The position numbers were made by a program, and so were the translations under genes. Shown here one piece after another: positions 23,101 to 61,353 of a stretch of 64,000 nt of DNA. The stretch covers positions 8,551,835 to 8,615,834 of the forward strand of contig OX419342.1 of NCBI GenBank assembly GCA_948470475.1, read 5' to 3'. Numbering within the stretch: the first letter of the stretch is position 1; each line of letters starts with the position of its first letter. The notes beneath the pieces are model-generated. The model ran no database searches. It was not told the DNA's origin and worked only from the letters and a program-made list of their open reading frames with translations. This DNA comes from Galaxea fascicularis (Eukaryota > Cnidaria > Anthozoa > Scleractinia > Euphylliidae).

Positions 23101-23249
23101 AATCAAAGTTTTTTCTATTTTCCCATATTGCTTCAGGTTCTGCTTTAAATTTCCTGTCGTTTCTTCACGTTGCCAACTCTCCCAAGATCCCTGCTTTGAG
23201 CCTGAATTTGATCCCGAAAGCAGGCCAATCATTTTTATTTACTTTTAAA

Positions 23250-31432: not shown

Positions 31433-32270
31433 TACTCGTAGTATTGGTATAGATGTGATCGATTAGCGTAGCTGAATGATGGGTCAACCGTGTTGGCTTT
31501 GTTATTACCGGCAGTAGATTGTTAGAATAGAGCATATTTAGGTAATCGTCAGTAGGTTGGTGGCTATTGCATTTAAAGAAGTCTATATTCATATCACCAA
31601 GGAGATATAGCTGATACTTATTAAGGTTGAAGTGCTTGATTACCTCATCAAGTTTATCCTTAAATATATCAACATTTACTGGCGGGTGCTTGTAGATACA
31701 GCCAACCATTATAGGTCTCTTGCCATTGCCGGGTGCTATTTCCACCCAAACAGATTCTACGTATGGAATATCTAGAGTTATATCTGTCCTTGGAATTGTC
31801 TTTAAACATTTGTTAATATAAAGGGCCACCCCCCCTGCAGACGTTAGGGAGTCAGCATGGAATATATTATAATTAGGTAAATAAACATTGTCAACAGTAT
31901 TCATATTGAGTCTAGTTTCTGTGATTCCTATGACATCAGGCTTTAGATGTAGGGAACATAACATATCTTCAAGTACGTTTAGGTTTTTTGTTAAACTCCT
32001 AATATTGCAATGGAGGAGAGAGATAGGTTTTGTTCCCAGCCTATATAGAACCTTATTTAAGCTGGGAATATCATAATAATTAGACTGGGGATTTATAAAC
32101 ATGTTGTCTGGGTCAGCCTTATCAGCTTTGTCAGGGTTAGATATCATGTTGTATATATCTATATCTTTAAGGTTCTCAAGCTGCAAATGACTGGTTCCAT
32201 TAAGCAGGTGAAATTCTCTGTTATCTAAATTATAAAATGGTAACTCTTGCGGACCATTTATGATCATCAT
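31419..32270 (-). CDS. LINE APE-type endonuclease ORF
   Basis: 283 residues. The N-terminal leader is about 80 residues long. The endonuclease motifs are LLHCNIRSL, VIGITETRL (catalytic Glu), GGVALYI, VGCIYKHPP, LYLLGDMNIDF (the GDxN motif) and TLIDHIYTN near the C-terminus. The SDH motif that should follow is absent because the sequence is deleted there and joined to the RT part. The enzyme would nick target DNA. Confidence 0.85.
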   Translation of the reverse strand: MMIINGPQELPFYNLDNREFHLLNGTSHLQLENLKDIDIYNMISNPDKADKADPDNMFINPQSNYYDIPSLNKVLYRLGTKPISLLHCNIRSLTKNLNVLEDMLCSLHLKPDVIGITETRLNMNTVDNVYLPNYNIFHADSLTSAGGVALYINKCLKTIPRTDITLDIPYVESVWVEIAPGNGKRPIMVGCIYKHPPVNVDIFKDKLDEVIKHFNLNKYQLYLLGDMNIDFFKCNSHQPTDDYLNMLYSNNLLPVITKPTRLTHHSATLIDHIYTNTTSSGYS

Positions 32271-32340
32271 GGTTGTTTATATTAGCAACCATAGTAATAG
32301 TTGAGCATAAAAAATTATGAATTTCTTATCTGATCAAGGT

Positions 32341-33152
32341 AGACTCACCAAGTAACTGGTGTCGTTTGCTAAAACGGGCTCTTTGCACTATCAGATTGCG
32401 GCGAACGTCAAAATAACTGTTAAGGGCAGTGCGAACTTCTTCGTATGTAGCTTTGTGTTCGTCGATTCGGAGAGTAGCTAGAATGTCGTCTGCACAGTCC
32501 CCCATAGCATACAGAAAGGTACTCACTTGCTCGTGTTCAGGTTTATTCTTGAGTCCGGAAGCGACTCTGTAGCGTTCGAAGCGACGGCTCCACTTCATCC
32601 AACACTCGGCTTGTTTTGGTCCGTTCGTCAGGGGCACCCAACGACAATTTTCGGAAAATATCTGTTCGGAAGACGATTTGACATCTAGACTTTTCGGAAC
32701 ATTTGTTGTAAAATATCTTGCTTGCCTGCCTCTCCTAAGATTTTCGAACATCTAAAAACTACTATAATTGCCCATTTTTAACGGATTTTTACCGTTAAAA
32801 CGTCACCTAGAATTTTCGGGAGCCTTTTTTCTGGCTGAAATTTTCGAAAAGGTGAGTTTTGATCCCTATAATTTTCGGATCACTAGACTTTCAGCTAGGA
32901 AATCCGAACAGATGAAAAATTTTTAGGGGATAAAAATATGCCTATATCTACTGTTTAAATACGAAAATAAGTTTAACAATACTATGTTTAAGTGGTTTTG
33001 AAATATATTCTCGTTGGGTGCCCCTGGTTCGTGCCATCGAACTTCCCAGGGAGTGGAAGTTGACTCGGCTGTTGTGGATTATCTTCGTTCTCTTGTGTTC
33101 CCGAAGGTAACCCTGAGGTTTCTTGGTGTGATATCGCTGCGTTGTCGGGCAT
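32341..33152 (-). CDS. gag: Gypsy Gag N-terminal part, split by a MITE
   Basis: Gag starts at ATG 33152 (MPDNAAISHQETSG) and runs to GKFDGTN at 33027. It then meets the MITE (32629-33026) and resumes at 32622 with GPKQAECWMKWSRRFERY through to QLLGES at about 32341, where the LINE begins. The first piece is exactly 42 codons and the frames on both sides match, so the MITE inserted into an intact gag. The apparent ATG at 32751 belongs to the MITE. Confidence 0.8.
32629..33026. mobile_element. 398-bp MITE in Gypsy gag, TSD GTTCGT
   Basis: Ends CAGGGGCACCCAACGA and its inverse TCGTTGGGTGCCCCTG. It is flanked by GTTCGT at 32623-32628 and 33027-33032. Removing the element and one GTTCGT rejoins gag in frame (GKFDGTN/GPKQAE). 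The CAGGGGC ends resemble hAT-type TIRs, but a 6-bp duplication is shorter than the usual 8 bp. Confidence 0.8.
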
Positions 33153-33323: not shown

Positions 33324-34150
33324 GTGTATATTGATATTCTCGACCGCGTTCTTTGGAGCCCTGAAAAGGAATGTGTAAAGAACTATAATATGCAACGATG
33401 CCGAAGCCAACAGGATAGCTGTTAAATAAAACGTCATGACCGTAAATTGGCGTTCACTGTGGTGTTTTTTGTACGATGCCCGCTTCTGCACAACATGGGT
33501 CATAGCCTTCTTATGAAGCGAGGAGCTGTGTTTGAGATGTCGGTTGAAAGACGTAAAGAGCATCACCTGTACCACGATTAAAACACTGATATCAGGGTGG
33601 GGTGTATAACTAAGTGTATTTTAAAATAAGTAGTATCATCGATACCAGTAAACTGAAGCATGCAGAAGCTTGTGATGTAAACTAAGCTAACAGTGAGAAA
33701 TCCCAAAACAAGATTTCTGCAGACAATTTCCTTGAACTGGTGGGGGTACGTTATGGCGATGTACTGGCACACCGAGAGTGCCAAAACAATAAGAAACGAA
33801 ACTGTTATCGCTATCGCGGAGACACTTCCACCGATTCTCTGAACCAAGAAATAAATCTCGCTTGGATTATTTGTAAAATCGGCGAGGTCGGCGAAGTAGA
33901 ACGCTGTAAACATTGGCTCTACAGTTAATCCCGTGAGAAGGTCAACAGCAGCAAGGCCGGCGATAAAAAACGTCATTGGAGTGCGGAAACAATGCAGAGG
34001 ATCCCTGTGAAACGCCGTCAAGAGAAGGGCTTTGGAAGCCACGGTTATTGGCGATAAAATGCATAAAAAAATCGCAGAGATCAGCTCTAAATGACGATAA
34101 ACCAGAAATTCAGGCAGAATGTCACTCGAAGAGTTTGCCGTCGAATTCAT
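33324..34150 (-). pseudogene. GPCR TM1-TM6 part with one-base frameshift
   Basis: The first frame runs from 34150 to a stop at 33578, within TM5 (HPTLISVF). The coding sequence continues in the next frame from about 33585 (LIVVQVMLFTSF) through intracellular loop 3 and TM6 (FYLTAILLASASLHIIVLYTFLF) up to the element border at 33319-33323. A run of four T at the junction needs one more T to stay open, so a real deletion or a sequencing error is equally possible. Confidence 0.8.
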
Positions 34151-34609
34151 GACAACTAAATCCGACACGCGCAGTGATAGGATGTATATGCCACTCGATA
34201 TAGATAGTAATCTCCTATGAATTTGAAGTTTCCCACCTCCTTCCCTTTTTGCAGAATTAATCCTAAAGGTAACCTGAAGGAATATCAATGATAACGACTG
34301 TTGTTCTCTTTTGATTGGAGAGAACGAAGGCGGTTATCACCACACGTCGCCTTTCCCTTCCTCAATAAGGTATATTCAGTCCATCTCATCAGTGATAAAC
34401 ACGTACCAACTTGTCAGCCAGTATTAATAGCGGCTGCGGGCTTTCATTTTAACAACGAAGCCAAATGGCTGTCGATCTCCCCTGTCAGTATGCACCTGTG
34501 TTGTCGACGTTGTGGCGCGACCGACTTAAAATATATATGTTGTGCCGCTGGGCGTTAGCCCTAGTAAAGGGTATCAGGGAACCACACGAGGCAAAGAAGA
34601 AATTCTTAT

Positions 34610-43391: not shown

Positions 43392-43747
43392 TTACAACCA
43401 AGAAATAAAATGATCGATGTAACTAAGGCTAACTAGTGATGGTATAAATAATAATAAACTGCTGCCAGTACCAGAGAAAGGCCACGCTGTTGGGTTGCTC
43501 TTTGAGTGCTGCACGCTATTACGCTTAGGAGACCAATCCTGGCGAATATCTCTCGAGCTTAGCATCTCGTAATACTGATTGACTGCCATAGCAGCCTGTT
43601 GGGCACTCTCCTTTTGCGCTCGGATGGCTTGGCATAGCTGGCGCTGGTGCCGTTTTGTGAGGACCTCCACCTTTTTCTTCATGTTGGCCACAAACGTCTC
43701 TACAATTGGATGCAACTCGTTCCTTAGATCTTTACTTTGCATCAAAT
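43392..43747 (-). CDS. Channel gene terminal exon: coiled coil and hydrophobic tail
   Basis: Starts after ttttccttgacag and encodes 117 residues. A long charged helix (ETFVANMKKKVEVLTKRHQR, continuing through AMAVNQYYEML) is likely a coiled coil. A Ser/Asn-rich linker follows, then a hydrophobic C-terminus (SSLLLFIPSLVSLSYI) before the TAA at 43392. Phase 1 in. No AATAAA is obvious on the minus strand in the following 200 bp. Confidence 0.7.
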
Positions 43748-46700
43748 CTGTCAAGGAAAATAAAACCACTCGACCTTGGTTCTTTCATTTCTGGGATGAG
43801 ATCTTTAGTAAAGTTCTTTGGCAAGCAAGTGTTATAATTTTCAGGTTTTCCTAAATTTTGTCATTCAGATGAAACTGTTTTCTTCAGGAACTCTCGGAAG
43901 TTTGATGTGATATTTCGTATATAAGCTTATATATGAAAACGTTACAATTGAAGTGAATTTCATCTTGAAGCAACAGAGGATCTGAATTGAATAGACATTT
44001 TATCCAAAATAACATTCGTGCTGATGGATATTTGCCAAATCATGGCCATGACCAGATCTTCAAATGAGAGCGATTGAGCAGGAAAAAAACGATAGGAGGG
44101 GAGTAGGATTTGCCTTTAATAAAAGCCGCTCTTGCAGCGAGTTTTCCCAGGAATTACGATTTTAGTTTGCCGAAGTATTCTCTTTGCTTCAGACACACAC
44201 CCTCACTAGTTTTGTCTCGACGAAGCTCGTAGATTATTCCTACCACACTTGACACTATCAACAAAGTTCCAATAATGATCACCGCGGTGATAAATTTTGG
44301 CGAGGTCGCACTGAAGAGCCCCGTGGACTGCTGCTCTCCTGGACTGTCCTCTGGTTCCTAAAAGAAATTCAAATTTTGATACGTCATACGTACTTAAAAG
44401 TAGCTTATCCGGGGCGGCGAGTCCGCCCATAATGTTCTATTTTCAAATCCGAACGCACTTCGACCCATCTATCCAATCATTCGTCCACTGGTCGCTCTGC
44501 AACCTTCAACGTTCCCTTTGATGTACAACTTAAACTAAAATTTTTGAGAAGTATCGGCACGATCAGGTACGACGTAAAATGAAACAAAAGTATGCATGCT
44601 TGCATGAATGAAATTTTGGACGCAAGAACGAACGAACCATCGAACGGAACGGAACGAATTTTAATTTACATGTACCAAGACATAAAATGCACTCTCGTAA
44701 AAGAAATCTTTGGGAGAAAGAGGAGAGAAACTCTGAGGACGGGTTTTCACAAAGTAATCTTTTTTAACCTTAGAGCAAGTTGGTCTTGATGCTCTCGAAG
44801 GCAGCACCTAACAAAGACGATAACAGGGGCTAATGCTGCAAAATAATGAAGGCCTGTCGCTATTAGCACGATCGAATTGCCTCACCTTGAGTATCTTGAC
44901 ATTATTCTCGATGCTCTTGAACACATTGGCAGCGTCGCTCTTAATCTTCTCTGTAAAGCATGCGTCAAGCTTCATAGAATTCCCAGCCAACACTACCCCG
45001 TAACTAGTTTTGAAGTCGTAGATACGAACGATTCTAAAGCGAGGGTCCTGAAACAGATGCTTGTGAGAGGACAGCACATAAAGGTCCACCAATGCTCCTT
45101 TCACCTCATGGTTTGCAAGCGCTTGGCTGATTTCCTCATATGTTTTATAGCTACGCACTAGAACGCAATCAAATTAATAAAAGTGCAATACATTCGAACT
45201 GCTAGAACAGGGGACGTTCTTCCAAGGCTATCAAGTAGACGTATTTATTTTGCCTGGTTCTGTGATACTGATCCGTTGGAAATTATTATAGCTTTCTTAT
45301 GATAATTTCTGATATCAAAAATCTTATTAATCAAGACCTTTGTTACTTTCATTGATGTTCACTTCAATCCTTTTTTCTAAAACCTTTGTTTGATTGAGAG
45401 CGTCACTATAAGGAGAAATTAATCATTGATCACTCTTAGGGATTATTGAAGGGTTTTTACAAAAGGTTGATAAAAGAATTATAATAAAATATTTCAATCT
45501 TAAGTGAAAACATATATGTTAAAATAACTTGGTATAACTGCAAAATTAAGCCAAATCACTTGAGCGAATTACAGACAGTAGCCGATGACCAATCACGTAA
45601 CCTAGAGTCACCAAGAACTTAGAGAGACCATAAACTGACTGGAATAAACTAAAGCTATAGTTCATGTGTTACCCGTGTTCACTTTGGCATTTTTCCGTAT
45701 CCCTAGTCGAAAAGCAGAGTTGTTTGAGATAGCTGCAACCTGCAAATGAAAATGATTTAGTTCAACCGTCCATAGCTCAACACAAACAAAAAGAAAAGAA
45801 AGAAAGAACCCGCATGTCAATCAGTTCGTGGTGTAATTATGACGTGCTTTGCTGCATCTCAATTGAACAACGAATGCCTTAAAGGTTTTTCAGGTAAGCT
45901 CATGGGGTCAAGAAACCACCCCATTCTCTAATAAAACAAAGCGAACAAATAAAGACACACGCAGAGGAAAACTGGGATCTTGTACTGTTCTCAGATGGGA
46001 TGCCTTGGGATGGCGCATTGTAAGTTGGGGCAGAACTTGTAGGTTGAAATTCCTTTGTTTAAAGTCCTGAAAACACAGAGGTGAGGATGATCAAGGACTC
46101 CATAGTTTCTCCACCTACCTTTCATTGTTTGAGTGTGTGTGTGTGTCATTGTAACTAAGAGCACATTTCTCTTTTTCCAATTCCGGTTTGGGAATGAGAG
46201 AATATATGCAACACGGTTTAGTGAAAAACGCATAATCTCAAAGGGAATACTCTTGACGGAAATAGATGAAGCTGTTACAATTACGTCGTCAGGTAAGACC
46301 GGCGTTCCTCCTGAACTGGCAATTGTACGACAGTTTTTATGCTTTCCACGGAGCCTTCCTGTTCTCCTAGGAATCTCTTACAAGAGATCTTCCGCTGACT
46401 ATCATTTCGAACAATCGTTTGAACTTGAATACCAGTGGCAAAAATTAAGGGTACTTACCTGCGTGCCATAAAGGGCTATGTAAGGTCCCGAATAGCCAAA
46501 CTCTGTGAGAGCCGTGGTGATTTTGCCGGTTAATATGGTGATGATAACCAATCCGCAGAGGGTCCATAGGATCGCGAACAGACGGGCTACCCCACTTCTC
46601 GGACAGCGGTCGCCATACCTGAAAAGAGTTACAGCCTTTGATGTTTATAGCTTCGGTTTAACTATTCGAAACCGAAAGTCGTGAGTTTAAGATAACTAAA

Positions 46701-47882
46701 CAGGTGTAAGTAAGATCATCTTGGGTCAGTGTGTGCTCAACATCAGGGGCGGATCCAGGAATTTCTGAAAGGGGGGGGGGGTTGTACACTACCGAAGTAG
46801 CCTTGAACACCAATGCTGTGGAAGGCGAGTAAAAACTTCGTAATAACAATTTTATTCTATTATTATTTTACGAAGAATCAAGCAAAATAACAACAACAAC
46901 AAAAATTCTCGAAGGGGGAAGGGGGTTGCAACCCCCTCAACCCCTCCCCTGGATCCGCCTCTGAACATGTCTAAGTTATGATCGCGTCAATGGCAGTAAT
47001 GTTGAGCCGTGCGTTGGCGCTTCCTCTTTCACCTCCACATGTGTATTAACTAGAAGGGGACGTAAAAGAACCCATGCACTAGGAACCCTACAATGCCGGT
47101 AATAAGACTTTGGGACAATTGTCAAACGTTGGCGAAAACTATCAACTTCACTGCATATACTTATAAGAGTAACTTACGTTGTTCTTTTATTGATGTCTTT
47201 TAAACTCCCCTTCTCCCATCCAATGCTGAAATATTCGATCAAGCCGTCTGTGGACTAATCTTGCTTTTGGCGACCGTTAAAAATCAATATTGTAATTTTT
47301 TTTGGAGGGGGGGGTGGGGGGGGGGGGTGGGGGGGGGGGTGGGAAGGGCACGAACAAGTGAAGAAACCGTTAAGCGAGAATTGTCCTAAGTCTTACGACC
47401 CACTTTCTAGTTCCCTGTTTTATTATCTGGTCTACAGTACCTCTCAGGGGTGGGTAGAGGCTAAGCGATGGGCTTGCAGCTTAAAGGAAACCAGCAGCTC
47501 ATTGGACTGCCGCTGTTGGCTCATTTGCTGATAATTGGAGAGGCAGGGCCTAACTAAAGAGTTATTTCACCAGGTAGTAGAAATTCAAATGAACTGCCAA
47601 AATCCTGACAAGTACGCCTAGGATTTGGGTGTAAAAACTGAGATGCCTTGCAGTCGACTTACCCTACAGTGGTAGAAGTAACAAATGCCCACCAAATTCC
47701 CTCGATGGCGCCACGAACAAAGGACTTCGGAAATTCATTTGTGTTTGTTCGAGTGTCCTAACAGGGAAATAAGACGAGATATCCTGATATTTACCAACAG
47801 AGGTGACACAGTCTGTAGGTTCATGTAATTTCAGATTTTACCCTGCGTCAGTACGAATCTAAATCAGAAGTTGTATCTTTGC

Positions 47883-47942
<60 letters not shown>

Positions 47943-50900
47943 TTTCAATATTTATATACAGCGCTATAGGTAAAAATATTCCAACGCGCTTTACAACAAA
48001 GCATAAAAATAAAGTGAGCGATATACAATGCAACACTCAATGAAGCCAGGAACATTAGTTTCCGGCTTTGTCTCAACTGTGTTAAACTATAAAAACTATA
48101 AAAAACAACAATTTGTAAAATAAAATGCAAAGATAAAATCAATAATGATAATAATAATAGTAATAATAATTATAAAAAAATTAAAAGTTCATCTGGCCTC
48201 TATTGCATAAAAGATTCAGTAAAAGGCCTCTCTGTATAGAAATGTTTTCAGTTCACGTATAAAAGTGTCAATCGTTTCACAATTTCTTATTTTTGGTGCA
48301 GGTAAAGCGTTCTGAACCTTGGGACCGGCTACGGGGAAAGCGCGGTGACCAAAGGTCTTGCATCTGGCTATTGGTTGCTGGAGTGTCAGCACATCACGCC
48401 GCAGTGAGTAGGACGTCTTGGAGATGCTGCTTTGGTCTTTCAAGTACTTTTGGGCCATGCCTTTGATGGATTTGAAGACCAGGAGGACCGCCTTGAAGCG
48501 GATCCGGTATTCAATGGGTAACTAATGTAAGTTACTAAGGGTTGATGTACTGTGCGCATATCTTGGGATATGGTAGATGAGTCGCGCTGCAGCATTTAGT
48601 ACCTTCTAAATTCGACCCATCTGGTACTTTGGGATCCCAAATAGTAACGAGTTACAGTAGTCAATATGGGACGTCACAAACGCGAGGATTAAAATCTTGG
48701 TTGAGACTTCAGAAAGGAACTTTCGGATCTGTATGATTTTATACAACCCAAAGAAAGCTTTACTGTACACGTTGCCGACGTGGGTAGCCATAAACATCGT
48801 GCTGTCAAACCAAGCACCTAGATTACGTGCCGATTCCACAGGCTTAATTTCAGATGTACCAACATGAATGTGATCGATGTTTACTCGTGCACGCTGTTGA
48901 CGTGATCCGACAATCAGAAACTCAGTCTTGCCATCACTTAACATAAGTTGATGGTGGGTCAGCCATCGACGAATGTCGCAGATGCAGTTCGCCATTGCAC
49001 GGATAGCGACAACCTGGGAAGCGTCTGATCCAGCATGAAACGATACATACAGCTGGGTATCATCAGCGTAATCATGTATGGTTGGCAGATGTTTCTTCCT
49101 AACATGGAACACGATGCGAGGCGTAGATGATAAAAAGTATTGGCCCAAGACAGCTTCCCTGAGGCACACCAGTAGCGAGATCAAAGTCTCTACACTGTTG
49201 TTGATCAATGACGACACGCTGTTTCCTCTCGGAAAGGTACGATTTGAATCAGGAGATCGCAAGATCGTCCACTCCAAGACCACGCTGCAGCAAATCTACC
49301 AAAATCATGTGATCAGTAATGTCAAACGCAGCTCTAAGGTCCAAGAGGGCGAGCAAGGTAACCTCTTGTCTGTCCATCCATGGCAAGATGGATGTCGTTC
49401 TGGAATTTCACTAGTGCAGTTTCAGTCGAATGATAGTGACGGTACGAAGACTGACAAGTAGGCAACAGCGCATGCTCCGAACAATGAGCTAACAGCTGTG
49501 GGATAACTGCTTTCTCAGCTAGCTTAGAGACAAAGGCCAAGTTACTTACGGGTTGGAAGTTCTCGTGCACAAGCTCAAGACCATTTTTTGTCTAGCAACG
49601 GCGCGATAAGTGCAACCTTCTAACTGTCTGGGACACAACCATTTTCGAGAAACGAGTTGATCATATTGGTGATGACTGGAGCTAGTTCATTCACGCATAA
49701 TTCCACAACCTAAGTAGAAACAGGATCCAGCCGACAACTTGCGTTTGATGACGAGGAAATGATGGTACGTATCTCTTGCTCGGTGGGGGGGGGGGGGGGG
49801 GAATCGTTGAAGATGACCAGATGGTAAGGGCAGAAAGTAGTCGTGTGGTGGAACGGTGCAGTTCTTGATTTTCTCCCCGATAAGCGTAACTTTGCCGGAA
49901 CAAAATAGTCACCCAAGTCGTCAGCCAGTTGTGGTGCGGAGTTGTAGGGGGGCAAAAGATTGTTGCCTTTCACTAATTTATATAGAGAGTTGCAATTGAC
50001 CACCTGAAATAGCTTTTTAGAGTCTCCAGCACAGTCGACATGTATAAGTCCGGCATAGTATTTCCTCTTGGCATCCTGCAAGTGCGAACAGTATTCACCA
50101 CAAGCCTCTCGGTAAGCGCGGATGTCCGCGTCTAGATTAGTCTTTCTCATCTTCCTTTCGAGTTTTCTACGCTTGGTCTTCAGCCGCTTCAGTTCGTCGT
50201 CAAACCAGAGCACTCTAGGGTGTACTACAGGCATCTTCCTCTGTACAGGTGCGTACTTATCAAGAATAGAACGCACCGTTCTATCATAAGTCGTTGCTAG
50301 ACCAGCAGCAGGAACTTCATTCAGTTCTGATGCAAGAATATACCCTTTACATGCCTCGAGATTAATTTCCTTCCATTTACGAAATGATACTTCCTCAACT
50401 GTTACGGCAGTAGGTGGAATAGCAAGAGAGCACTCGACAGGAACAGCAAGGGATGCGGAGAGATAACCATTCCGCCGACCGGTTAGCTCAGTTGGTTGAG
50501 TTCCAGTCTAACGAGCGGGAGGTCGTGGGTTCAAACCCCGGCCGGACCAACACTCAGGGTATTTATATAACTGAGGAGAAAGTGCTTCCTTTGCAATGAC
50601 GTCTGCAAATGGTTAGACTTTCTAGTCTTCTCGGATAAGGACAATAAACCGGAGGTCCCGTCTCACAATCCTTTACAATTGTTTCTGTGAGACGTTAAAG
50701 AACCACTAGGGACGTAACAAACCCTGGCTGTGACCACCCCTAGTGATGGCCTGTTCTATTCAGTAAAGTAGGGCTGACCTCGTTAGGACTTCGAGTCTGT
50801 ACGTTAGTCCCTCATTTAGTGTTTCTTGTCATACCCACTAAATGGAAGCTACTATAAATAAATAAATAAAAACCATGATATCGTTGGAAGAGCCAGTAAA

Positions 50901-53900
50901 AATAAGATCGAGCCAGTGACCAGATGCGTGGGTGGCAAAAGTAACATGCTGCTCAGATGATCCAAAAGTTTCAAGAAGTTCAGAGAATCGTCTAGTATCA
51001 GGATCAGTGGAATCATCCTTATGTAAATTGAAATCACCAGAAATAACCAGCGTCTCAGACCACAAAACTGCAGTCTCTAGATAGTGGGGGGGGGGGGGAC
51101 AGGGGGGCGGGAGCCCGGGAGAATAGGGGGTGGGAGGGGTACGGGAGGCGGGAGAGGAAAGGGCGGGAAGCGGGAGTTCTAAGAGGGCGGTAAGCGGGAG
51201 AGAAATGTAAAACGCTATTTTTTTTTTAATTCAACAATGTGTTACAATACTTTCAAAAACAAGAACCCAAAATATATTTGACTTGTATTTAACGTCTTCT
51301 CGGTCACTTCTGACACTTCTGAGCAAACGAGCAAACGAAAATTTGCGCTTGGGCTGAAAAACAGGCTCACCTCCGGTGAAATAGTAAACCCGTTTACAGT
51401 GGTTACGTCATAGGTGATGAAATGTCAAGCGGCATGAGTGCACATGTGTCGCGTATAAAGCTGTACTAAGCTGTCAAATTGCAAAAAGGTGAGGCGAGCA
51501 GGCGATCTCAAAGTATTTTGAGAGACCTTTGTTTTCTCTATAAAGTTTATGAAGTGTGTTGTATCCTTAAGATACGACTTCTGTATCTGTGCAATCGGCT
51601 GTAGTAATTTGTCCACAAACGATGATAGTCTTTCTGTAGGGCCCTCGCAGCCCGAAATTATTGGTCTACTGACCGGATTTTGTTTGTGGATTTTAGTGAG
51701 GGTATAGAATATTGGGATTCTTGGAGGGTTGCGTGTTTGACAAAACCATTTTTTTGTCATGTCATCAATACAGTTATTTTGGTGAAGACGTGTAACAAGC
51801 TCATTAACTCTTTGTAATGTTTCTTCCGCCATGGCGTTTTTGAGAGGTTTATAATGTTCTCTATTGTTAAGATGAGTTTGAGATTCTTGTATTTTATCAC
51901 ATTTGTTCATTATGACAGTTGTTATTCCTTTGTCTGCCTTTTTGAAAATGATTTCAGTGTTGTTAACAAGCTCTGTAAGGGCTTTGTATTCGTCGTGTGA
52001 CAGATTGTTTTTAATTTTTGATCTCTGCAAGTTGGATTTTGACACTTTCCAAGTAGCTTTCAAGGGCAACTGACTTTTGAACCGGTGGTACTCAGTCTGA
52101 TTTGACGTGAAATGGGTGCGGTTCTGTATTTTTTGTGTGGAATATGTATTGTAGTCGCATTCGTCTCGCAAATTTTTCAAAGTCTTGCAAGTGTTGGCGT
52201 TTAATATTTTTCTCATCTGTCACCGGTGTCGGGGCAAATTTGAGCCCTTTGGAGATCATGTTGACTTGATTGTCAGTTGGTTGGAGATTGGAGAGATTTT
52301 TAATGAATCTCTCGTTTGATTCTCTTTGTGTGGCAATCCGTTTTTGAGCAAAGTGTGCTCGGCGCTGCTTGCAGCTAATGTTTGCGTTGAACCCTGTACT
52401 TTTTATAGGCCCCTTAACGGTGGTTTGATTTTCAGGAAAGAGACTTTTGTATTTCTCAATATCTTTATTGTTTGAAGAAGTCTGCAACCCGTGTGTGTAC
52501 AATATTGATCAAGAGAATTGTGAGGCTAAATAACTAGGATGTGTTTCGACTCTGCCAATTTACAGGGGACGGGAGCAGCACGGAAAAGGGCGGGAGGCGG
52601 GAGATAAAGGTACGGGAAGCGGGAGAGCAGGGTACGGGAGGCGGGAGGTTCTGACCCCCCTGTCACCCCCCCCCCCCCCACTAGATAATCAGAGAAGTCT
52701 GTAAGGAAAGCAGTGGTAGGCACCGAGTGAACATCTGAGTACGGTCGCCGATACACAACAACAAACTTGGAAGTCAGACCATGGACGGCAAGGTTCCACT
52801 CGGATACCTCAAAAGATCGTTTCTCTTCTCCGTTAACCAGATGGACCTTGATGTCATCACGGACCAGAATACCAGTCCCTCGGCCACCCCGGCGGTCAGC
52901 TTTTCTTGGTACATTCCGGAAAGAGTAACCTTGAGGAGACAGGGCAGCCAGAACAACACTATCCTCGTCACCCAGCCATGTTTCCGTTACCGTGCACACA
53001 TCTATTTTGTTGCCAATTACGTGATCTATTAATACCTCCGTCTTGTGACGAATAGACCTAGCGTTGACATTTCCAAAAGCGAGAGATTTTTTATGTCGCG
53101 TAGAATGAGCCAGACGCCGTAGAGGAATTAAATTCTGATGATTACGTCCAGTGAATTCATGAGCCGTGGTAATGTCAAGGGAACAGTAAGCTAGATTGTA
53201 GCCTGCTGAGGTAACAACTTGAATATTTAATGCATTACTCGAAGAAATATACAAATAATCTCTGCAATTACTTTCGAATAAAGAAAAACCCTGTAAAATC
53301 CCTCCAGTAGAGATCGGCGATTCCATGCTATGAGTTGTTAATAGTTTAACTTTCCTTTGACCTGATCCGCAACCGCGGCGTGTTGGTTTTGTTCTAGAAA
53401 TTCCAAGACCAGATAGAGCTCGCCACAGCGACCTATCGAGGCAGAGTTCACTCATCATCTCCGAGCCCAAGAGTATCGCAGATTTCGAATAGATCCAAGC
53501 TATGATTGAATCCTCTGATGTTAAGCGAATAAAAGCTGAAGGATAAACTAATATTGCGAACTAGAACAAAAACTATTCGCTAAATGATGCGTAGCCTGTG
53601 CAATATAAGGAGAGTGGATAGCTGTACACGGGTATCTGTGCAAATGCGACAATCGAACAAAGTGTTTTTGAAACAATCCTCCCTCGAGGAGAGGAAAAAT
53701 ATATATATATTAAAAAAAATATATAGTCAACTCTCTCGTAAGCGACCACCCTTAGTGCGCGTCAAAGTTGTCGCTTACGTGAGGTGGTCGCCTTATGAGA
53801 AAAATCAACACAATAAACGCAAAACTGAATTCATTAACTAATTATATGGAGATAGCACCTTTTTATCTAAAATTAGGTTAATAAGGAAAAGATTGAAAAC

Positions 53901-56900
53901 AATGGCGAATTTCAAATCAAATAATGTCTGAAAAATCTTATCATACTACTGTTGAACCTTTGTATAACATTTTGTATTAGATCATTGTACGAACTCAAGT
54001 CATCTGTTTTTGCATGTCAACAGTTATTATTTGTCGGCTCCCCGGGTCAGCGTTATTAAAACTGAACTTTTATCAAGATTTGAGTAATGATTTTCTAACG
54101 ATCTCACGTGATCATGTTGGGTGGTCGTTTCGGCTCGAAACAGAAAACAAAAGAATATATCAAATTTCTTGTTTGAGGAGTGGTCGCGGTCGCTTAAGAA
54201 ATTTGAGTAGTGGACGCTTACGAGAGAGTTTTATTATAAACGGTATTTGACTGAGAAACAAAACGGTTATTTACGAAGTGGTCGTTTACGGGAGGTGGTC
54301 ACTTATGAGAAGTGGTCGCTGTGAGAGAGTTGACTGTAAACACAAATTACAAGAAACGTTGTCCCATGGGGCCTCTATTTTACGGTGACTTAGTTCACCG
54401 GACAAAGCAACTTTTATTAGTTATGATTCAAGATTCATGCGAAATACTTTGAAAATAGTGCAATGTCAGTTACTGACATATGAAGCTTAGAGGTTTGATA
54501 GATTTGCTCTTGATTCCTCAAGGTATGATGATAATGAAACCAAGCATATAGCCCCATTTCTTACTTGTAATTTACCGAACGCCATTTTCTCGTTTTGTAG
54601 TCGCGTTTTTGCTAAATTTTCCTTGTTTTTTCGTCGTCTAATAACAAATGCACGTGGTTCAACAGGAACTTTGACGATTTTTACGACATTAATTTCCAGA
54701 ACAGATCGATGCAAAAAAGTGGCGGGCGATAAGTTCCCTAGAGAACACTTCCCCAGAGAACAGTTCCCAGGAGAACCCCCCAGAGGCTTTTTCACTTACC
54801 AAGCTCCACATAACTATCCCAGCTACTGCCATCATTGAGATTAAGAACAAGAGCAGGGGCCAGGAGTGTAAAAACACATTAGCTATAGCGACAGCTTTCT
54901 CAGCAGGATCCATGACAGTGATAAACGCCACGCCGGGGGATTCGGCCAACTTAACGTATCGATACAATGAATAGTGAGTCTGGCCTTCATAACCATTCAT
55001 AGGGACACTGAAATCCGTGTCAGAGTCGATGCTGCTTATCAGTTCCTTAACACCAGGCTTTCTGCCTGGATTACCTTTACCATCGACCTCGTAGTCGATT
55101 TTGGAGATGGATCTGCCGTCAGGCAGCGTGCAGTCCGAACAGCAGGCCTTTACAGCATTTTCAAAGATTTGTGGGATGAACCCGCCGACGATTCCATTAT
55201 CGTGAGTGATGTAAGGTGGGAAGTGATACCACGACGTCTTAAACACCTGAGGGCATTGACAGGTGGCTGGAAGATATTAAAATTGAGAACGAGTCTGAAT
55301 CAAGGGTAGTCTATATGTATAATTAACCAAGCGCTAGGGCTTTTTTGGAAGAAAATGAGCCCGAGGTCTCCTTGACAGTGCAGACCGAGCGAAAAAAGAC
55401 CCAGGATCGCTATTCTCCCAGTACAGTCCCGAGCAAGCTTGGTGAATAAGAGGTTTAATATTAGACGACTAAAGAAAAATTTTAAAGGTTTCTTGTAAAT
55501 TCCATTTAAGATTATGCCCGAAATGTACGGGATAAAATGGATCCGATTCTTACTGAGGGCGTATGATGTATACATGTTACAGTAGATAACACATTTTTTT
55601 AGCTTTGTCTGACAAAGGAATAAAATTAGCTAATTTCTTTGAGTTGTTTTTCATGGTAAGTAGAAACACGGGCTCATTTGGGACAATACCCGGTTCAATA
55701 CTTAGAAAATATCGGACCCCTAACAGAGGGATTTGATTTGTTGATCATTGTTATTGGATAAGATTTCTTACCTGAGTCGTGTAATGTGCAGTAAGACTGG
55801 AGCTCTGAATGCTTTGTTATAAGTTTTCATGCCGTCTTAATATCTCTTGCAGTCTTTTTAAAAGAGTCTTACTGTTTAAACAATCTTACTAGGCTTAATG
55901 GAATACTTTTTAACATATTCACTGAGAATATTCAATTTATCGACAAAATCAAGAAAAATTACTAAAACCAATATTTTTAGCTGCCTTATAATGATTTTCT
56001 TTTTTTTTTTAATAAGAGGGTTAACAAGGAATAAAAAAATAAATTGATCTTGGAAGCAAACATTTGTCAGAATATCCTGGCAGATATAGCAAAAATGTCA
56101 GCATATGGGCAACTGAGCACCTACCCCTCCCCTAACCCAACAAGTTGTAATAAGTTGACAAATTAGTGTTAACGTTGGCGTAGGGGAGGAGTAGGTGGGC
56201 AGTTGCCCAGTACTGACATTGGGCAAAAGAGTTGTCATGCAGAGGAACAGATGACCTAACGTGCTATAGTAACTGGCTATCTTAGTACCCGGTCTAACTT
56301 TGAACATTTATGCTCCTTTTCTAATTTAGGGAAAAGCACCTTACTAGGCACTGAGGCATGACATAACTTACAGCCTTCTTTAATGGCGGATCTTGGTCCT
56401 TCGCCTTTCATCGTGAAAGCTGTTATTGCCAAATTATAGGTCGCGAAGTTAGTGAGACCTGTTATGGTCGTGTTTGACACTTCAGGTCTAACAGTGGTGT
56501 TTCTTTCAGTTTGGTCGGAGGCGGCGTATCCCAATTCTCGTGTTTTCGTGAAATATATCCGATATCCAAGCAAAATGCCGTGAACATATCCATCAGGCAC
56601 TGGGCCCCAGGTCGCATCCATTTGATAGTCACCACTGCTTGAGCGAGTTTGAAACGCTGACGGTGGCTTGCTGGGAACTGCAGTGAAACAAGAATTACTC
56701 TTTAGCAGGCGGGCATTGGGGAGCTCTGAATACCGCAAGACCGCAGAGAAAATGTCACTTGCCCACTAAAGGTAATTTTGGCACATGTATTTCTCAAGTT
56801 GTCACCAAACAGGAGCCAAAAAGGGGCTTACCAAAAGAGAAGCACTTTGACAGTCCGAAAAAACCACCTCGAAAAAACGAATTTAAAACAAAAGTCTCGC

Positions 56901-59900
56901 ATTTTAAAGCTCAACTCATTAAACGAGGATAGCCAGAAACGTTGATTATGACAACACTGTCAGAGATCAATTGCTCTTCAACAGAAATGAAAATAAAATA
57001 AACGCATCTGCCTTTCATAGCACAATACCATCCATCGGTGTCAAATATAATATCAGACTCTCGTGCAAAAATTGGCATTTCATTCAAGGTTTTGACACGT
57101 TTCCATATGTCGGCAAGCAACCCTTGGTGAGAACATGGTTTAACGAGCTTCCACAACAAACCCATGTTTTCATTGCCCAGCGTTATAACTGAAGGGCGTT
57201 TTGAGATATCGAAGCAAGTCTCTGCCTTTATTCAAAAACAACCATTTGGTAGAATGTTACAAGACAGTATTCGAGTTAAATGGGCTAGAAAGTCGTGACT
57301 ATTTCGAGTACTGTGATAACAATACTAGATCCAATAATCCATTCAAAATACGTATGAAATCCGCAAAAATAAACGCTTTCAAACATACTTCTTCGTGAGA
57401 ATTATTAAACGCCGCATCTGGGACAAAAAAGTTAATAAGCGCCGCCCTCGAATAAGCGCCGCCATCCCCGATGAGTTTAGTATCAGCCCATAGGAAAATT
57501 AACGGATAGAAAGTGTACCGTTGAATAAAAATATAGAAAAAGTAAATTTGTCTGGTACAATGTTTAAATAAGCCCCGCCCGCTAATAAGGGCCGTCCTCG
57601 AATAAGCGCCGCATTTGTGGCGCGAAAAATTAAATAAGCGCCACGGCGTTTATTCGAGTAAATACGGTATTGTTTAGGTAACCGATTGACACTTCGACTT
57701 ATAAGGGACTGAAAGACATGTTGCAAATGTGGCTTGATTTGCTGGAATGATTTTGAACTGGGAAAACGATAATTTTTAAAAACTCTAGCATTGAACAAAG
57801 CAATTCTAGGGTTTTGATTAGCTTATCAGCTGTGGGATATTGCCTTTCTTGCAAAATGAAATCGGCAAGCTGATCTAGCAGCGTTGCCGTCAGTTAACCG
57901 TTTATAAGACGATTTTTTCACTCGCCCCTTCTAGACTGAGGAAAAGATTATAGCCAACTAAGCGTTAAGCGCCTTATTGGCTACATATCATTTCACACCC
58001 GATACCCGTTCCTAAAATTAGTCTAGTACTCATTTTGCTCTGTGTGATTATCATCTTGTTCTAGATTATCTGTCACGCACAGATAATCTTGTTCAAGATT
58101 ATTTGTGCGCGACACGCAGCAACAGAAATCACTTTGGTTCCGGGTTTACGACAGACTATTCGACAGTAAAAGTTTTCGAGATATCTTACCATCCTGATCC
58201 GTGGTGGCTGAAGTAAAAGCTTTTGGCCCAGCGCCTTTGGAAGTAAATGCCTCTACTGTCAAATTGTAGACATGGTACTTGTTGAGATTGTGAAAGTACT
58301 GAGACAAATTTGAAGTAGTCACTGTTTCAGTCATTGAAGCGTTGCTTGAGTCAATCAAAGTCACGTTATAACCGAGAATGATTCCTCGTTGACAGCATTC
58401 AGGTACCTCCTTCCAAAATGTAAATAGAATCGTTGAACTTGCATTGATAGCGGTAAAGTTACTGGGAGGCTTGGAAGGGTCTGGTGCAGAGTAGAAAATG
58501 GAAATAGAATGCAGTTAATCAGTTGGCTCGGACTTCTTGCGAGGATGTGCGTGTTATTAGCACAAAGAAACATACCACTCTCAATTGATATTCCCCACGC
58601 TTAAACTGAACATATCACGCTGTGAATATTCCATGTCACCTAACGACATTCGGTCGTTCGTTAAATAGTCAGTCCGTCAGACAGTGTGTCAAACACTTAT
58701 CAGTCGTTCATTTATTTTATCAACTAATTTGTTAACAACCGAAAGTGAATTGAAAACTGCGCACTAACGTGATTCTTCAATGAACACCTCCAGAGATTTA
58801 GTAGGACCTTCTCCATAATTATTAAAAGCCAACACTTCTATCTTGTACTTGATGAACGGTCTAAGTCTGGTGAAGTGAGCCTGAAGCGTGTAAGCCTGAA
58901 GTTGGTATGTTCGATTCTCCAAGCTTTGAAAACCTTGCTTTGTCAGCTCGTGTATTGATACTTTGTATCCCTGCATGATGCCATGATGCTTGTCCAGTGC
59001 CACTTCTTGCCAGGACGCGAACAGACTGGAATTAGTTTTATTGTGGGTCGTGAGGGACTGAGGTGGGGCGCCGGGGGCTAAGATTGACCAAGAAAAAATT
59101 CAATTACATTTGGATTCCACTGTGTAGTCGCGTTACAGCTGTCTTCCCCAAAACCCCGAGAACCTTTTCAAGTCGGAAACGTATTATTCCCTGTCATGTT
59201 TCGCCCACGTGAGTTTAGAGCAAAAACACAAAAATCCTCTCGAGGGAGGGAGGTGTTTAAATAAGAGTCTTAGTTTTGTACACAGAGAGTACCTTACTAC
59301 ACCGCAACATTTCACTGCTGTTTGTTGCTACGATTAGAAAGGGTGCTGCTTAGTTAAATGTCGTTTCTATTAGTTTTATAGGAGCCCACTGTTGAAAGCC
59401 AACTAATTCTGTTGCTATTTAACAATTAGACCCGCGGCCCTTGAGGGCGAAGGGTCTAATTGTCTTATTATCACCCAACTTGTCTGTTAGAAAAGGCAAT
59501 AATAAAGTTAGCAATTGCAAGTTAGCAATTTATTAGGGAATAAAACAAAGGAATTGCTACACGAGAACTATAACAATAGTCCTCTACTAGCGTAGCCAAT
59601 CAAAATGCAGGATTTGCGTTAGTCCACTAGTTGGGTGATACTAAAAATGAATAGGCCCGTTTCAAACCTCGTGCTATTGCCGTGTCGAACTCAATTGATC
59701 GAATTATATTCGACAGTAGCGCGACGTTTGAAACCAAGTCGTGCACCTGCTGTATCGAACTGAATTCATTAATTAGAAATAGATTTAAAAAGTCCGCAAA
59801 ACCGGTTTGTGATGGCTTGACGCATGTTTACAGCAACAGCTTTTAATTCGACTGAATTAGATTCGACGTCTAAAACCAAGTCGTGCTGGAGTCGTGCTGG

Positions 59901-61117
59901 CGTCGTGCTGGAGTCGTGCTACAGCCTAGTCGAGCCAACTAAGAACGGCAGTAGCACGACGTTTGAAACGAACCTATGGGAAAATCGAAACCGCAATTTG
60001 TCAATAAAACGAACAGAGAACGGCAATTTGTGCCCGCCGACGCCTCTGATTCCCCCGGGACAAAATGCAAACTATACTATCATGTCTCGATTTGGTATTA
60101 TATAACTTTAAGACTTTACTTTTCGCTAAAATTAGTGTGGAGAAATTAGTGGACCCTATTTTTCATTTGATTTCGTATTTACAAACATTTCACCGTGATG
60201 TAGAGTCGATCGTGGTGTAGATCTTAAGAGAGCAGAACCACAAACCTTCTCCATCTGTTCTAACAATTACTGACTCATTCGTGGGACCTGCGCCTTTGTT
60301 TGTTCGAGCTGCGATGGTAATGTTGTAAAGCCTGTATATCTTTAGCCCAGTAATCTGGGTACTATTCACCAGGCCCGTATCCTTTGTGAACTGTCTTCCG
60401 TCTGCTGTGAATATATCTCTTGCGTTGGCCTCCCGGAAGTAAAGTGTGAAACCAAGCAGATGACCGAGTGTCAGCCGGGGCTCTTCTTGGTAGTTCCAGT
60501 TTATTTCAATGACACGTGAGCTGACATTGTGCGCAGCCAGACTGTCAGGGGAATTGATAGGCACTGAGAATACAAATACGGAATTAGAATGAGATAGTAG
60601 TATCCAACGGTCTTGTGGCACATAGCGTCGTTCCGTATGGAATAAACAAGAGACGTGAATAAAACTCAACAAGAGATTTATTCACCGAACGAATGACAAC
60701 ACAGCCGTGTACCGAACACGCTCATCATACGATTAGTATCGAACGGTCCTCAACTGAGAGTCGATAGTAAGTTCGTTATTTGTTTGGTTGGGAAAGCTCA
60801 TGCCCTTTTCTCAACCAATCGCTTTATTCCGTGGGAAATGTTCTTGCGCTTTGTGATTGAATCCTTAATAGAATTGGCACTAATTCAAATTATCTACAAG
60901 AGCCAACATATTTGTAGGTCATCATCTTTATTGCTTCAAATTACCCGTGTCGATAAAACTCATTCAGTTATCGGTTTCATAGTAAGGAAAAATAAGGCAT
61001 ACCAAGCGCAAGATGAAAGCTTAAGAAAAAAGGTTGATATGACGTACCGGCCTCATCCGTCATGTTATAGATTTTGTTGCTTAGCGGGCCCTTGCCTTTC
61101 CGTGTAAACGCCGCCAC
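43392..61117 (-). CDS. FN3-domain ionotropic-receptor-like potassium channel (12 exons seen)
   Basis: Exons (minus strand, 5' to 3'): 61117-61048, 60563-60246, 59077-58769, 58480-58190, 56677-56372, 55266-54800, 47757-47663, 46618-46459, 45739-45673, 45157-44886, 44357-44207, 43747-43392. All junctions are GT-AG and every phase matches. They total 2862 nt, giving 953 residues and a stop. Numbering from the first visible residue: end of an FN3 (1-23), four FN3 domains (24-431), S1 lobe and M1 (432-587), pore with TVGYGD (617-622) and M2 (to about 655), S2 lobe (673-785), M3 (about 807-831), coiled coil (about 845-885), hydrophobic tail. The 5' end lies upstream, possibly beyond the window. Predicted role: plasma-membrane potassium channel gated by an extracellular ligand. 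Precedents with a potassium filter in this layout are GluR0 and AvGluR1. Confidence 0.85.
44207..44357 (-). CDS. Channel gene exon: last transmembrane helix
   Basis: An acidic juxtamembrane segment (EPEDSPGEQQ), then the helix FITAVIIIGTLLIVSSVVGI and a basic stop-transfer YELRRDK. The donor ACTA/gtgagg gives phase 1 and links to the last exon. If it is not spliced, translation stops at about 44153 with a short tail, so an alternative C-terminus is possible. Confidence 0.75.
44886..45157 (-). CDS. Channel gene exon: S2 lobe
   Basis: Encodes the rest of S2: YKTYEEISQALANHEVKGAL followed by DLYVLSSHK (compare EEG-x-x-x-V ... AFI-x-D-S in the family), RIVRIYDFKTSYGVVLAGNS and a final helix ACFTEKIKSDAANVF. 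Acceptor ttctag, donor gtgagg. Phase 1 in, phase 0 out. Confidence 0.8.
45673..45739 (-). CDS. Channel gene exon: start of S2 lobe
   Basis: A 67-nt exon (acceptor atttgcag, donor gtaaca) encoding VAAISNNSAFRLGIRKNAK. This corresponds to the start of S2 in ionotropic receptors (a Val, a short turn, then an arginine-rich helix). It is required to bring the next exon into phase. Confidence 0.75.
46459..46618 (-). CDS. Channel gene exon: rest of the TVGYGD filter and M2
   Basis: Starts after gaaaagagtt read in reverse (ttttcag) and completes G-Y-G-D-R-C-P, followed by the M2 helix VARLFAILWTLCGLVIITIL and an ITTALTEFGY linker in the place of the SYTANLAAF motif of glutamate receptors. Donor gtaagt. 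Phase 2 in, phase 0 out. Confidence 0.85.
46744..46963. mobile_element. 220-bp element with CAGGGGCGGATCC ends
   Basis: Ends CAGGGGCGGATCCAGG and its inverse (one mismatch), flanked by AACAT at 46739-46743 and 46964-46968. G-rich and C-rich subterminal runs. It lies in the intron after the filter exon. Non-coding. Confidence 0.75.
47303..47343. repeat. G-run tract
   Basis: An almost pure G tract on the plus strand (C on the gene strand) broken by single T residues, in the intron between the two filter exons. Likely an assembly-error hot spot. Confidence 0.8.
47663..47757 (-). CDS. Channel gene exon: pore helix and first half of the filter
   Basis: A 95-nt exon from acceptor ccctgttag to donor gtaagt. 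It encodes a short cytoplasmic linker, then IEGIWWAFVTSTTV and the first two bases of the filter glycine. The WW-x-x-V-T-x-T-T-V pattern is that of potassium channel pore helices. Phase 0 in, phase 2 out. It lies 7 kb downstream of the M1 exon. Confidence 0.85.
47884..47941. repeat. AAT microsatellite (LINE 3' tail)
   Basis: About 19 uninterrupted AAT/ATA units, continuous with the 3' end of the L2-like LINE and derived from its tail. Confidence 0.9.
50471..50870 (+). mobile_element. tRNA-derived SINE in the L2 LINE
   Basis: A 400-bp element with a tRNA-like head at about 50476-50549 (A box TTAGCTCAGTTGG, B box GGTTCAAACC), an unrelated body (CAACACTCAGGGTATTTATA onward) and an AAAT-repeat tail. 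Flanked by AACCAT at 50465-50470 and 50871-50876. It interrupts the LINE ORF after the endonuclease. Confidence 0.85.
51084..52680. mobile_element. G-run-ended insertion carrying a Penelope-type RT
   Basis: A 1597-bp insertion in the L2 endonuclease, flanked by CTAGATA at 51077-51083 and 52681-52687. Its ends are inverted (GTGGGGGG... ACAGGGGGG on the left, CCCCCCTGTCACCCC... on the right). Next to each end lies a tract of direct CGGGAGG/GCGGGAG repeats (51102-51210 and 52563-52660). The middle holds a minus-strand Penelope-like RT ORF. Removing the insertion and one CTAGATA rejoins the endonuclease frame, which fixes the borders. Confidence 0.75.
51425..52502 (-). pseudogene. Penelope-like RT N-terminal region, frameshifted
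   Basis: The first frame (52502-52092) contains MISKGLKFAPTPVTDEKN and DFEKFARRMRLQYIF, typical of the RT leader in Penelope-like elements. After a frame change near 52180 the second frame continues with STWKVSK-type linker, EIIFKKADKGITTVIMNK (the KADKG motif), FYTLTKIHKQNPVSRPIISG and ERLSSFVDKLLQPI. It ends after FINFIEKTK, just before the catalytic palm (the DVTSLYTNI region), so the active site and GIY-YIG domain are missing. Confidence 0.75.
53730..54340. mobile_element. MITE with AGTCAACTCTCTC ends
   Basis: The left end (AGTCAACTCTCTCGTAAGCG at about 53733) and right end (its inverse at about 54312-54336) are terminal inverted repeats. The motif GTGGTCGCTTACG recurs several times inside in both orientations. 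TA occurs at both borders, so a Tc1/mariner-type element is likely. Non-coding. Confidence 0.65.
54800..55266 (-). CDS. Channel gene exon: S1 ligand-binding lobe and M1
   Basis: Starts after atatcttccag; a second AG 20 nt downstream would break the phase. After a short Cys-containing linker (STCQCPQ) it has the start of an ionotropic-receptor S1 lobe (FPPYITHDNGIVGGFIPQIF), a region ending FSVPMNGYEG (compare FSKPF in glutamate receptors), and then the M1 helix FLHSWPLLLFLISMMAVAGI. Donor gtaagt after ATG TGG AGC TTG. Phase 1 in, phase 0 out. Confidence 0.85.
55267..56371. other. Intron of the channel gene, no exon seen
   Basis: Between the last FN3 exon and the S1 exon. A small inverted pair around TAGGGGAGG(A/G)GTAGGTG lies at about 56115-56205. 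No additional exon is needed for phase. Confidence 0.5.
56372..56677 (-). CDS. Channel gene exon: last FN3 domain
   Basis: An FN3 domain of 102 residues beginning PSKPPSAFQT, with QMDATWGPVPDG and FATYNLAITAFTMKGEGP. Acceptor tttcactgcag, donor gtaagt. Phase 1 in and out. It joins directly to the S1 exon as EG-S-TCQCPQ. Confidence 0.8.
56911..57195 (-). other. Unrecognised coding-like frame in a channel-gene intron
   Basis: After an acceptor-like aaaacgcccttcag at about 57195, the minus strand is open for about 90 codons with coding-like composition (LADIWKRVKTLNEMPIFARE; IIFDTDGWYCAMKGRCVYF) and a stop at 56911. It vaguely recalls a ligand-binding lobe, but I cannot assign it. It lies between two FN3 exons that already join in phase, so it is not part of the main transcript. 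It may be an old paralogous exon. Confidence 0.25.
57400..57668. mobile_element. MITE-like repeat with CGAATAAGCGCCGC motif
   Basis: AATAAGCGCCGC-type motifs recur four to five times and the right end reads TTATTCGAGTAAATACGGTA. The left end lacks the inverse TACCGTATTTACTCG, so it is a truncated copy. Probably a Tc1/mariner-related family. It lies in an intron of the channel gene. Confidence 0.5.
58190..58480 (-). CDS. Channel gene exon: FN3 domain
   Basis: An FN3 domain of 97 residues beginning PSKPPSNFTA, with ILFTFWKEVPECC (core Trp plus a Cys pair) and YHVYNLTVEAFTSKGAGP. Acceptor ctctgcaccag, donor gtaaga. Phase 1 in and out. Confidence 0.8.
58769..59077 (-). CDS. Channel gene exon: FN3 domain
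   Basis: An FN3 domain of 103 residues (SLFASWQEV; GIMQGYKVSI; LRPFIKYKIEVLAFNNYGEGP). Acceptor caatcttag. The donor gttagt is weaker than the others but gives the required phase 1. Phase 1 in and out. Confidence 0.75.
59466..59976. mobile_element. Two adjacent MITE-like units
   Basis: Unit 1 (59466-59642) has inverted ends TATCACCCAACT and AGTTGGGTGATA. Unit 2 (59654-59974) has inverted ends GGCCCGTTTCAAACCTCG and CGACGTTTGAAACGAACC, related in style to MITEs A and B. Both lie in the intron between the FN3 exons at 59077 and 60246. Confidence 0.6.
60246..60563 (-). CDS. Channel gene exon: FN3 domain
   Basis: A single-exon FN3 domain of 106 residues with the core Trp in VIEINWNYQE, the Leu/Tyr pair LKIYRLYNI, and the C-terminal ARTNKGAGP. 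Acceptor tattctcag, donor AAG/gtttgt. Phase 1 in and out. Confidence 0.8.
61048..61117 (-). CDS. Channel gene exon: C-terminal end of an FN3 domain
   Basis: Starts after ttggatttcag and ends before gtacgt. It encodes VAAFTRKGKGPLSNKIYNMT, the last two strands of an FN3 domain, followed by DEA. Phase 0 in, phase 1 out. The first half of this FN3 must be on an exon further right, which I could not find up to 64000. Confidence 0.7.
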
Positions 61118-61152: not shown

Positions 61153-61353
61153 CATTTACACTACAGAAAAAAATGGGTCCGGACCCCGTCAAAAAAGTAG
61201 TACGGACCCATAATTCTTGTAAAGAAATACTAGAGTTTCCGCGGGGCCATAGGCGCCTATGGCCCCGCGGAAACTCCAGTACTTCTTTACAAAAGTTATG
61301 GGTCCGTACTACTTTTTTGACGGGTCCGGACCCACATTTTTCTGTAGTATAAA
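61153..61353. mobile_element. Palindromic MITE, ~95-bp arms
   Basis: A near-perfect palindrome. It starts CTACAGAAAAAAATGGGTCC at 61161, is centred on CCATAG GCGC CTATGG near 61254, and ends with the inverse at 61347. The arms match with few differences. It lies about 40 bp upstream of the first visible channel exon. Confidence 0.75.

Follow-up and report, generated by a model that had tools for sequence, protein, structure and literature searches.

A predicted coral gene that may join a polycystin-1-like FN3 ectodomain to a GluR0-type potassium-filter channel core

What kind of receptor would combine tandem fibronectin type III (FN3) domains with the selectivity filter of a potassium channel? 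The question is raised by a run of minus-strand exons in a 64,000-nucleotide stretch (hereafter, the window) of the coral Galaxea fascicularis (assembly GCA_948470475.1, 416.6 Mb in 170 contigs; contig OX419342.1, hereafter C8; window C8:8551835-8615834). The first-pass annotation of this DNA read the exons as a single ionotropic glutamate receptor (iGluR)-like protein, with FN3 domains, ligand-binding lobes S1 and S2, membrane segments M1 to M3 and a K+ filter. The best explanation, to which we give a probability of about two in three, is one membrane protein built by exon shuffling from a polycystin-1-like ectodomain and a K+-filter core of the type of the bacterial receptor GluR0. Directly supporting this reading are the exon anatomy, the kinship of the pore and S2, the sharing of FN3 domains with neighbouring genes, a breakpoint at an exon border and a second copy of the gene.

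All 12 exons between positions 43392 and 61117 were found, in phase and bounded by AG acceptors and GT donors, and the last one ends in a stop codon (Table 1). After splicing, the filter reads TTVGYGD and is divided between two exons (WWAFVTSTTV/GYGDRCP), as had been described. Pfam matches in the spliced protein comprise fn3 in seven stretches (5.2e-58), which agrees with the tandem FN3 domains of the first-pass annotation, Ion_trans_2 (1.4e-11) and Ion_trans (1.7e-7). Where M3 had been placed, a hydrophobic helix follows S2 in the same order as in animal iGluRs (by eye). No LIVBP-like amino-terminal domain was found by Pfam in these exons, a set that is incomplete at its 5' end. Both ends of the earlier model required revision. 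The exon at 61117, taken to be the gene start, encodes only the latter half of an FN3 domain that is divided between two exons, and the gene extends well upstream: three additional FN3 exons lie outside the window, 2-5 kb past its edge (window-numbered 68925-68634, 67871-67557 and 66363-66134), and the joined frame that includes them is open over 1234 codons. The 12-exon model comes to about 955 residues, in place of the 953 given before. At the 3' end, the last exon, earlier read as a coiled coil, is in phase as claimed, but it is placed by phase only, and in an alternative reading the previous exon terminates at its own stop (44154). Structure prediction for single exons, made without an alignment, gave mean values of the predicted local distance difference test that are too low to be informative (45.2 for the S1/M1 exon and 41.3 for the second S2 exon).

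The FN3 array recurs three more times in neighbouring stretches of the contig, on the same strand. Two of these arrays lead into one different FN3 domain, followed by EGF-like, REJ and PLAT domains and many hydrophobic segments, and the third leads into a second copy of the channel. From ~8.72 to ~8.43 Mb, the gene order is polycystin-like gene A, channel gene 1, polycystin-like gene B and channel gene 2 (about 290 kb). Searches of single open frames with Pfam, chiefly from copy A, returned fn3 (9.3e-11), EGF_CA (2.5e-9), REJ (1.8e-22 and 1.6e-34) and PLAT (8.3e-15); GPS stayed below the cut-off (0.0037 in copy A and 0.0068 in one copy B frame), and the 11-helix module of these neighbours was read by eye. 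The polycystin-like label of copy B comes from frames that resemble those of copy A on reading and from DNA that aligns to copy A at 88-96% over several blocks. A reading of the FN3 array as an orphan module was rejected, since the same array is found in these polycystin-like genes.

FN3 domains a-f of the channel gene, encoded by seven exons, share 63.9-95.2% amino-acid identity with polycystin-like genes A and B, and the exon borders are kept in each (7/7). The domain that follows (FNg) is ~31% identical to the corresponding polycystin-like FN3 domain, and all sequence after FNg is unrelated. At the DNA level, homology to both polycystin-like genes ends three bases past the donor of the FNf exon (blastn). 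Upstream of the array, a module of ~210 residues is common to all four genes of the cluster and another of ~60 residues was seen in three of the four; those of the channel gene lie at C8:8674613-8673981 and C8:8660080-8659901. The larger module looks laminin-G-like by eye, has no Pfam match and is left unnamed. The phases of the ~60-residue module and FNa do not join, so an exon between them may be missing from the model. The gene is of more interest than the first-pass annotation stated, its FN3 array being that of a polycystin-like ectodomain, apparently fused to a GluR0-type channel at an exon border. A further copy of the ~210-residue module, on the minus strand of the window (1249-1872), probably belongs to the 5' part of polycystin-like gene B as one of its exons; that gene lies past the window's left end.

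The second channel copy is 161 kb away, and 14 of 14 comparable exons keep their AG and GT borders (the last exon is outside the comparison). For FN3 a-f, the ratio of nonsynonymous to synonymous substitution rates (dN/dS) is 0.45 against polycystin-like A (p 3e-6), 0.61 against polycystin-like B (p 0.004) and 0.63 against the second channel copy (p 0.027). The surrounding region (C8:8434335-8620000) is a large tandem duplication with an offset of ~161 kb, in which the channel gene, its retroelement-filled intron and the downstream DNA recur at 95-99% identity.

The family of the channel core was assessed with profiles of bacterial proteins. Bacterial genomes were scanned for W(F/W)...T.TTVGYGDR, which yielded at least 120 stretches, and 110 of 120 had an open frame with the peptide pattern. 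Among these frames, 22 match S1 and S2 flanking the pore, 83 were counted as plain K+ channels, and five partial ones (L067, L075, L119, L147 and L156) were dropped from both groups. The K+-type GluR0 profile consists of 15 of the 22 K+-filter proteins, found among 80 stretches listed, and the non-K+ GluR0-type profile of 12 bacterial proteins picked from match rows; in these rows, 80% or more of the query is spanned by 22 records. One of the 22 K+-type proteins (L097) matches the GluR0 structure 1ii5 at 1e-111. On the K+-type profile, the 406-residue coral core scores 112.6 bits and none of the 83 plain K+ channels exceeds 85.8, upholding the earlier call of an iGluR-type pore with a K+ signature; on the non-K+ profile, the core scores 66.3 bits and the 83 channels stay at or below 31.1. 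Two ordinary iGluRs of the same genome, without a K+ filter, score 119.3 and 114.6 bits on the non-K+ profile; the best of 2000 core shuffles scores 2.7 bits on that profile and 4.0 bits on the K+-type one. S2, also claimed before, is recognised by itself (14.7 bits with the 12-protein profile, 18.3 bits with the 15-protein profile; 0/3000 and 0/5000 shuffles as high). The M1-pore linker has the length and pattern of GluR0 and is longer than in plain K+ channels. Alignment with hhalign against five bacterial proteins gave E 1.6e-10 across M1 to S2, with S1 alone and S2 alone weak, and in a local tblastn search the match to one bacterial protein starts ahead of S1 and extends to S2 (1e-4, 19% identity). 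Judged by these comparisons, the pore, the M1-pore linker and S2 are of the GluR0 type, and an S1 lobe is likely present, by its position.

Profile scores reveal more of this kinship than plain sequence searches, in which the core resembles only K+ channels. A PDB sequence search with the core gave 271 matches up to E 1, and in each of the best 60 of the 271 the match runs through the pore of a K+ channel or a similar cation channel; a fused S1-S2 string had no PDB match up to E 10. Core peptides searched against bacterial genomes hit 58 stretches, none of them a relative. The best 60 of 73 plasmid records match mostly in the pore only and include three substrate-binding proteins, one matching into S2, and 12 phage records match in the pore only. 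In a genome-wide SBP_bac_3 search, 11 places were found, none in the predicted channel gene; five of the 11 lie within 150 kb (C3:21398922-21547776) and are likely a tandem cluster of ordinary iGluRs. An ISIT..R-like S1 motif is present in 12 of the 15 K+-type proteins and is not recognisable in the core, where an arginine lies nearby in an unsure alignment. This S1 arginine binds the ligand carboxylate in GluR0-type receptors. The S2 acid is retained in the core alignment.

Table 1 Features of the predicted channel gene, in window positions.
Feature	Position	Strand	Basis
FN3 domain c, second half	61048..61117	-	AG/GT borders; phase; homologues in channel gene 2 and in polycystin-like genes A and B; first half (66363-66134) outside window
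FN3 domain d	60246..60563	-	Phase, Pfam, homology to copies
FN3 domain e	58769..59077	-	Phase, Pfam, homology to copies
FN3 domain f, last FN3 common to polycystin-like genes	58190..58480	-	Phase, homology, blastn
End of DNA homology, presumed shuffling breakpoint just within intron	58187..58189	-	blastn against both polycystin-like copies ends at 58187
FN3 domain g, channel-gene-specific	56372..56677	-	~31% identity to corresponding polycystin-like FN3; 100% in second channel copy
S1 region and M1	54800..55266	-	Phase; weak S1 match
M1-to-pore intron (7 kb), retroelement-like open frames	47758..54799	-	Open-frame reading
Pore exon 1, through TTV and two bases of next Gly codon	47663..47757	-	Phase, profile match
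Pore exon 2, GYGDRCP and M2	46459..46618	-	Phase, profile match
S2, first part	45673..45739	-	Phase, profile match
S2, second part	44886..45157	-	S2 score reached by 0/3000 and 0/5000 shuffles
Linker and final hydrophobic helix	44201..44357	-	Phase, second-copy comparison
Last exon, basic helical-looking tail and stop	43392..43747	-	Phase only; outside second-copy comparison

Several results weigh against a single, maintained receptor of the GluR0 type. The S1 region is in the right place and opens with PPY...G, but the lobe is weaker than had been stated, with 38/3000 and 46/5000 shuffles scoring as high. In the spliced protein, Pfam did not find SBP_bac_3 and left Lig_chan below threshold (0.17). 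A pore tree (42 sequences, including 12 of the plain K+ channels; 97 pore columns) sets the core beside eight of the 12 non-K+ bacterial proteins and not beside the K+ ones, with a support of 47 that does not settle its placement. Single-exon dN/dS exceeds 1 for FNa against copy A (1.53) and FNc1 against copy B (1.29), with few changes in each. From FNe to M3, the two channel copies differ at 4/2124 coding versus 63/12955 adjoining non-coding positions (p 0.053), a contrast that is lost when FNd and all non-coding DNA are included (20/2442 versus 99/14133, p 0.52), and coding constraint on the channel exons is only suggested by these counts. One could picture an ordinary K+ channel, with a two-helix or Kv-like pore and no ligand-binding lobes, under the FN3 ectodomain, and K+ channels are indeed all that Pfam and PDB detect in the core (PDB: best 60 of 271). 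We regard this as highly improbable: the core outscores every one of the 83 plain K+ channels on the profiles, the M1-pore linker is of the GluR0 type, and S2 is significant alone.

A different concern is that an unstable tandem cluster has recently given rise to a chimeric duplicate without function, or that the second copy is a haplotype that the assembly failed to merge. The identity of the channel copies (98.7% across 12.7 kb) is an allele-like distance, and the marginal coding constraint between them points the same way. A polycystin-like gene, however, separates the two copies on a single contig, the comparable exons of both are free of stops, their 5' FN3 exons remain open despite amino-acid differences of up to 38%, and none of the 178 gap bases between the compared DNA falls in an exon, which makes such an origin quite unlikely. 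The locus might also hold two genes. The FN3 exons would then be left over from a polycystin-like gene or encode a secreted FN3 protein, and a separate GluR0-type channel gene would start with a first exon of its own in the FNg-S1 interval. This would suit the presence of FN3 a-f in genes with a different C-terminal half, and the 1.1-kb interval between FNg and S1 was examined for open frames only. FNg itself does not occur in the polycystin-like genes and accompanies the channel in both copies, the open frame of the S1 exon contains no ATG before S1, and the exon starts in phase 1, matching the ends of the FN3 exons (FNg-S1 junction, phase 1 to phase 1). On this evidence, we consider separate genes unlikely.

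Under the preferred reading of one shuffled protein, the ectodomain would consist of six FN3 domains of the polycystin-1-like type, the upstream exons and the gene's own FNg, and the membrane part would run from S1 through M1, a TTVGYGD pore loop, M2 and S2 to a last helix like that of animal iGluRs. FN3 and channel exons would be joined in one transcript, and four subunits would form a K+-selective pore. S1/S2 and the FN3 domains would lie outside the cell, and the pore loop would reach into the membrane from within the cell, the orientation reported for GluR0. A ligand in S1/S2, or binding or tension at the ectodomain, could open the gate, and channel opening would hyperpolarise the cell. 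The polycystin-like neighbours may respond to a similar stimulus with an output of another kind.

Retroelement-like and repeated DNA is found in and around the gene. Within the M1-to-pore intron, retroelement-like open frames (48606-53557, minus strand) have the orientation of the gene, their class being read by eye; one stretch (52526-53557) resembles an endonuclease/exonuclease domain (Exo_endo_phos 1.6e-4, below the cut-off). A near-perfect inverted repeat (61180-61330) lies immediately upstream of the split FN3 exon, and an integrase/chromodomain-like frame (by eye) follows C8:8621835-8639334, in the 5' part of the channel gene. Elsewhere on the contig, a ~1.6-kb unit is repeated head to tail at 99.8-99.9% identity (C8:8509973-8516067). 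The window further contains several large transposable-element frames at 18192-32751 (retrotransposon polyproteins and reverse transcriptases by eye; 957 codons at 26307-29180) and a 251-codon minus-strand frame with the look of a seven-helix receptor exon (33578-34333, by eye).

As the first-pass annotation proposed, GluR0 and AvGluR1 are the closest described kinds. GluR0 (Slr1257 of Synechocystis) and the prokaryotic Group 1 receptors, as presented in the available text of PMC2950845, are alike to the predicted protein in M1, the TTVGYGDR pore, M2 and S2 (112.6 bits). GluR0-type bacterial proteins have no FN3 domains, whereas the predicted coral gene adds a helix and a tail after S2 and has no recognisable S1 signature. 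The topology of GluR0 is reported to be opposite to that of canonical K+ channels (PMC13099474, available portion). AvGluR1 of the rotifer Adineta vaga is likewise an animal receptor with iGluR architecture and a K+ filter; compared by description, the accessible portion of PMC12332018 mentions no polycystin-like FN3 ectodomain in it. Animal AKDF, NMDA and epsilon iGluRs have the same order (S1-M1-P-M-S2-M), but the animal iGluR classes have a non-K+ pore with a Q/R/N site in place of TTVGYGD, and animal iGluR surveys mention no K+-filter class in their available text (PMC6307864, PMC12226733). In a 2010 survey, glutamate-binding lobes and a K+ filter were combined only in bacteria, to the extent that the survey itself could establish this (PMC2950845). 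In the accessible part of a review, AvGluR1 is given as an animal case, and a functional construct is described in which the ligand domain of an AMPA receptor is fused to a viral K+ channel (PMC12332018).

On the ectodomain side, the predicted gene has six FN3 domains and two upstream modules in common with polycystin-1-like (PKD1) genes, by way of the adjacent polycystin-like genes. It contains none of the EGF, REJ, GPS, PLAT and 11-helix parts of the PKD1 type, and REJ, GPS and PLAT are absent from its Pfam matches. Cnidarian PKD1 proteins carry WSC, PKD, REJ, GPS and PLAT (available text of PMC4890752 and PMC8846589). No polycystin-ectodomain K+ receptor was found in the literature searched, a search that misses most subscription journals. 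In Nematostella, according to the available part of PMC8846589, one polycystin-1-like gene is specific to mechanosensory hair cells, and a potassium channel-like gene (NVE 12832) is, with polycystin 1, among 32 hair-cell genes activated by POU-IV. Because a polycystin-1-like gene marks these cells, they are the cell type to examine first.

If the gene is what it appears to be, it would be a second animal case of a K+-filter receptor, relevant to the choice between persistence of the K+ form in animals and its later return. It would also permit testing whether a polycystin ectodomain gates a foreign channel, and it would offer a simple electrical readout of the stimuli sensed by polycystin-like ectodomains. 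We tentatively propose, at somewhat short of even odds, that it represents a new receptor class, in which exon shuffling has transferred a polycystin-1-like sensor ectodomain from its usual 11-helix TRP-related module to a GluR0-type K+ channel. With the two kinds of gene alternating in one cluster, a single type of sensor would then have two distinct electrical outputs, a polycystin signal and a hyperpolarising K+ current.

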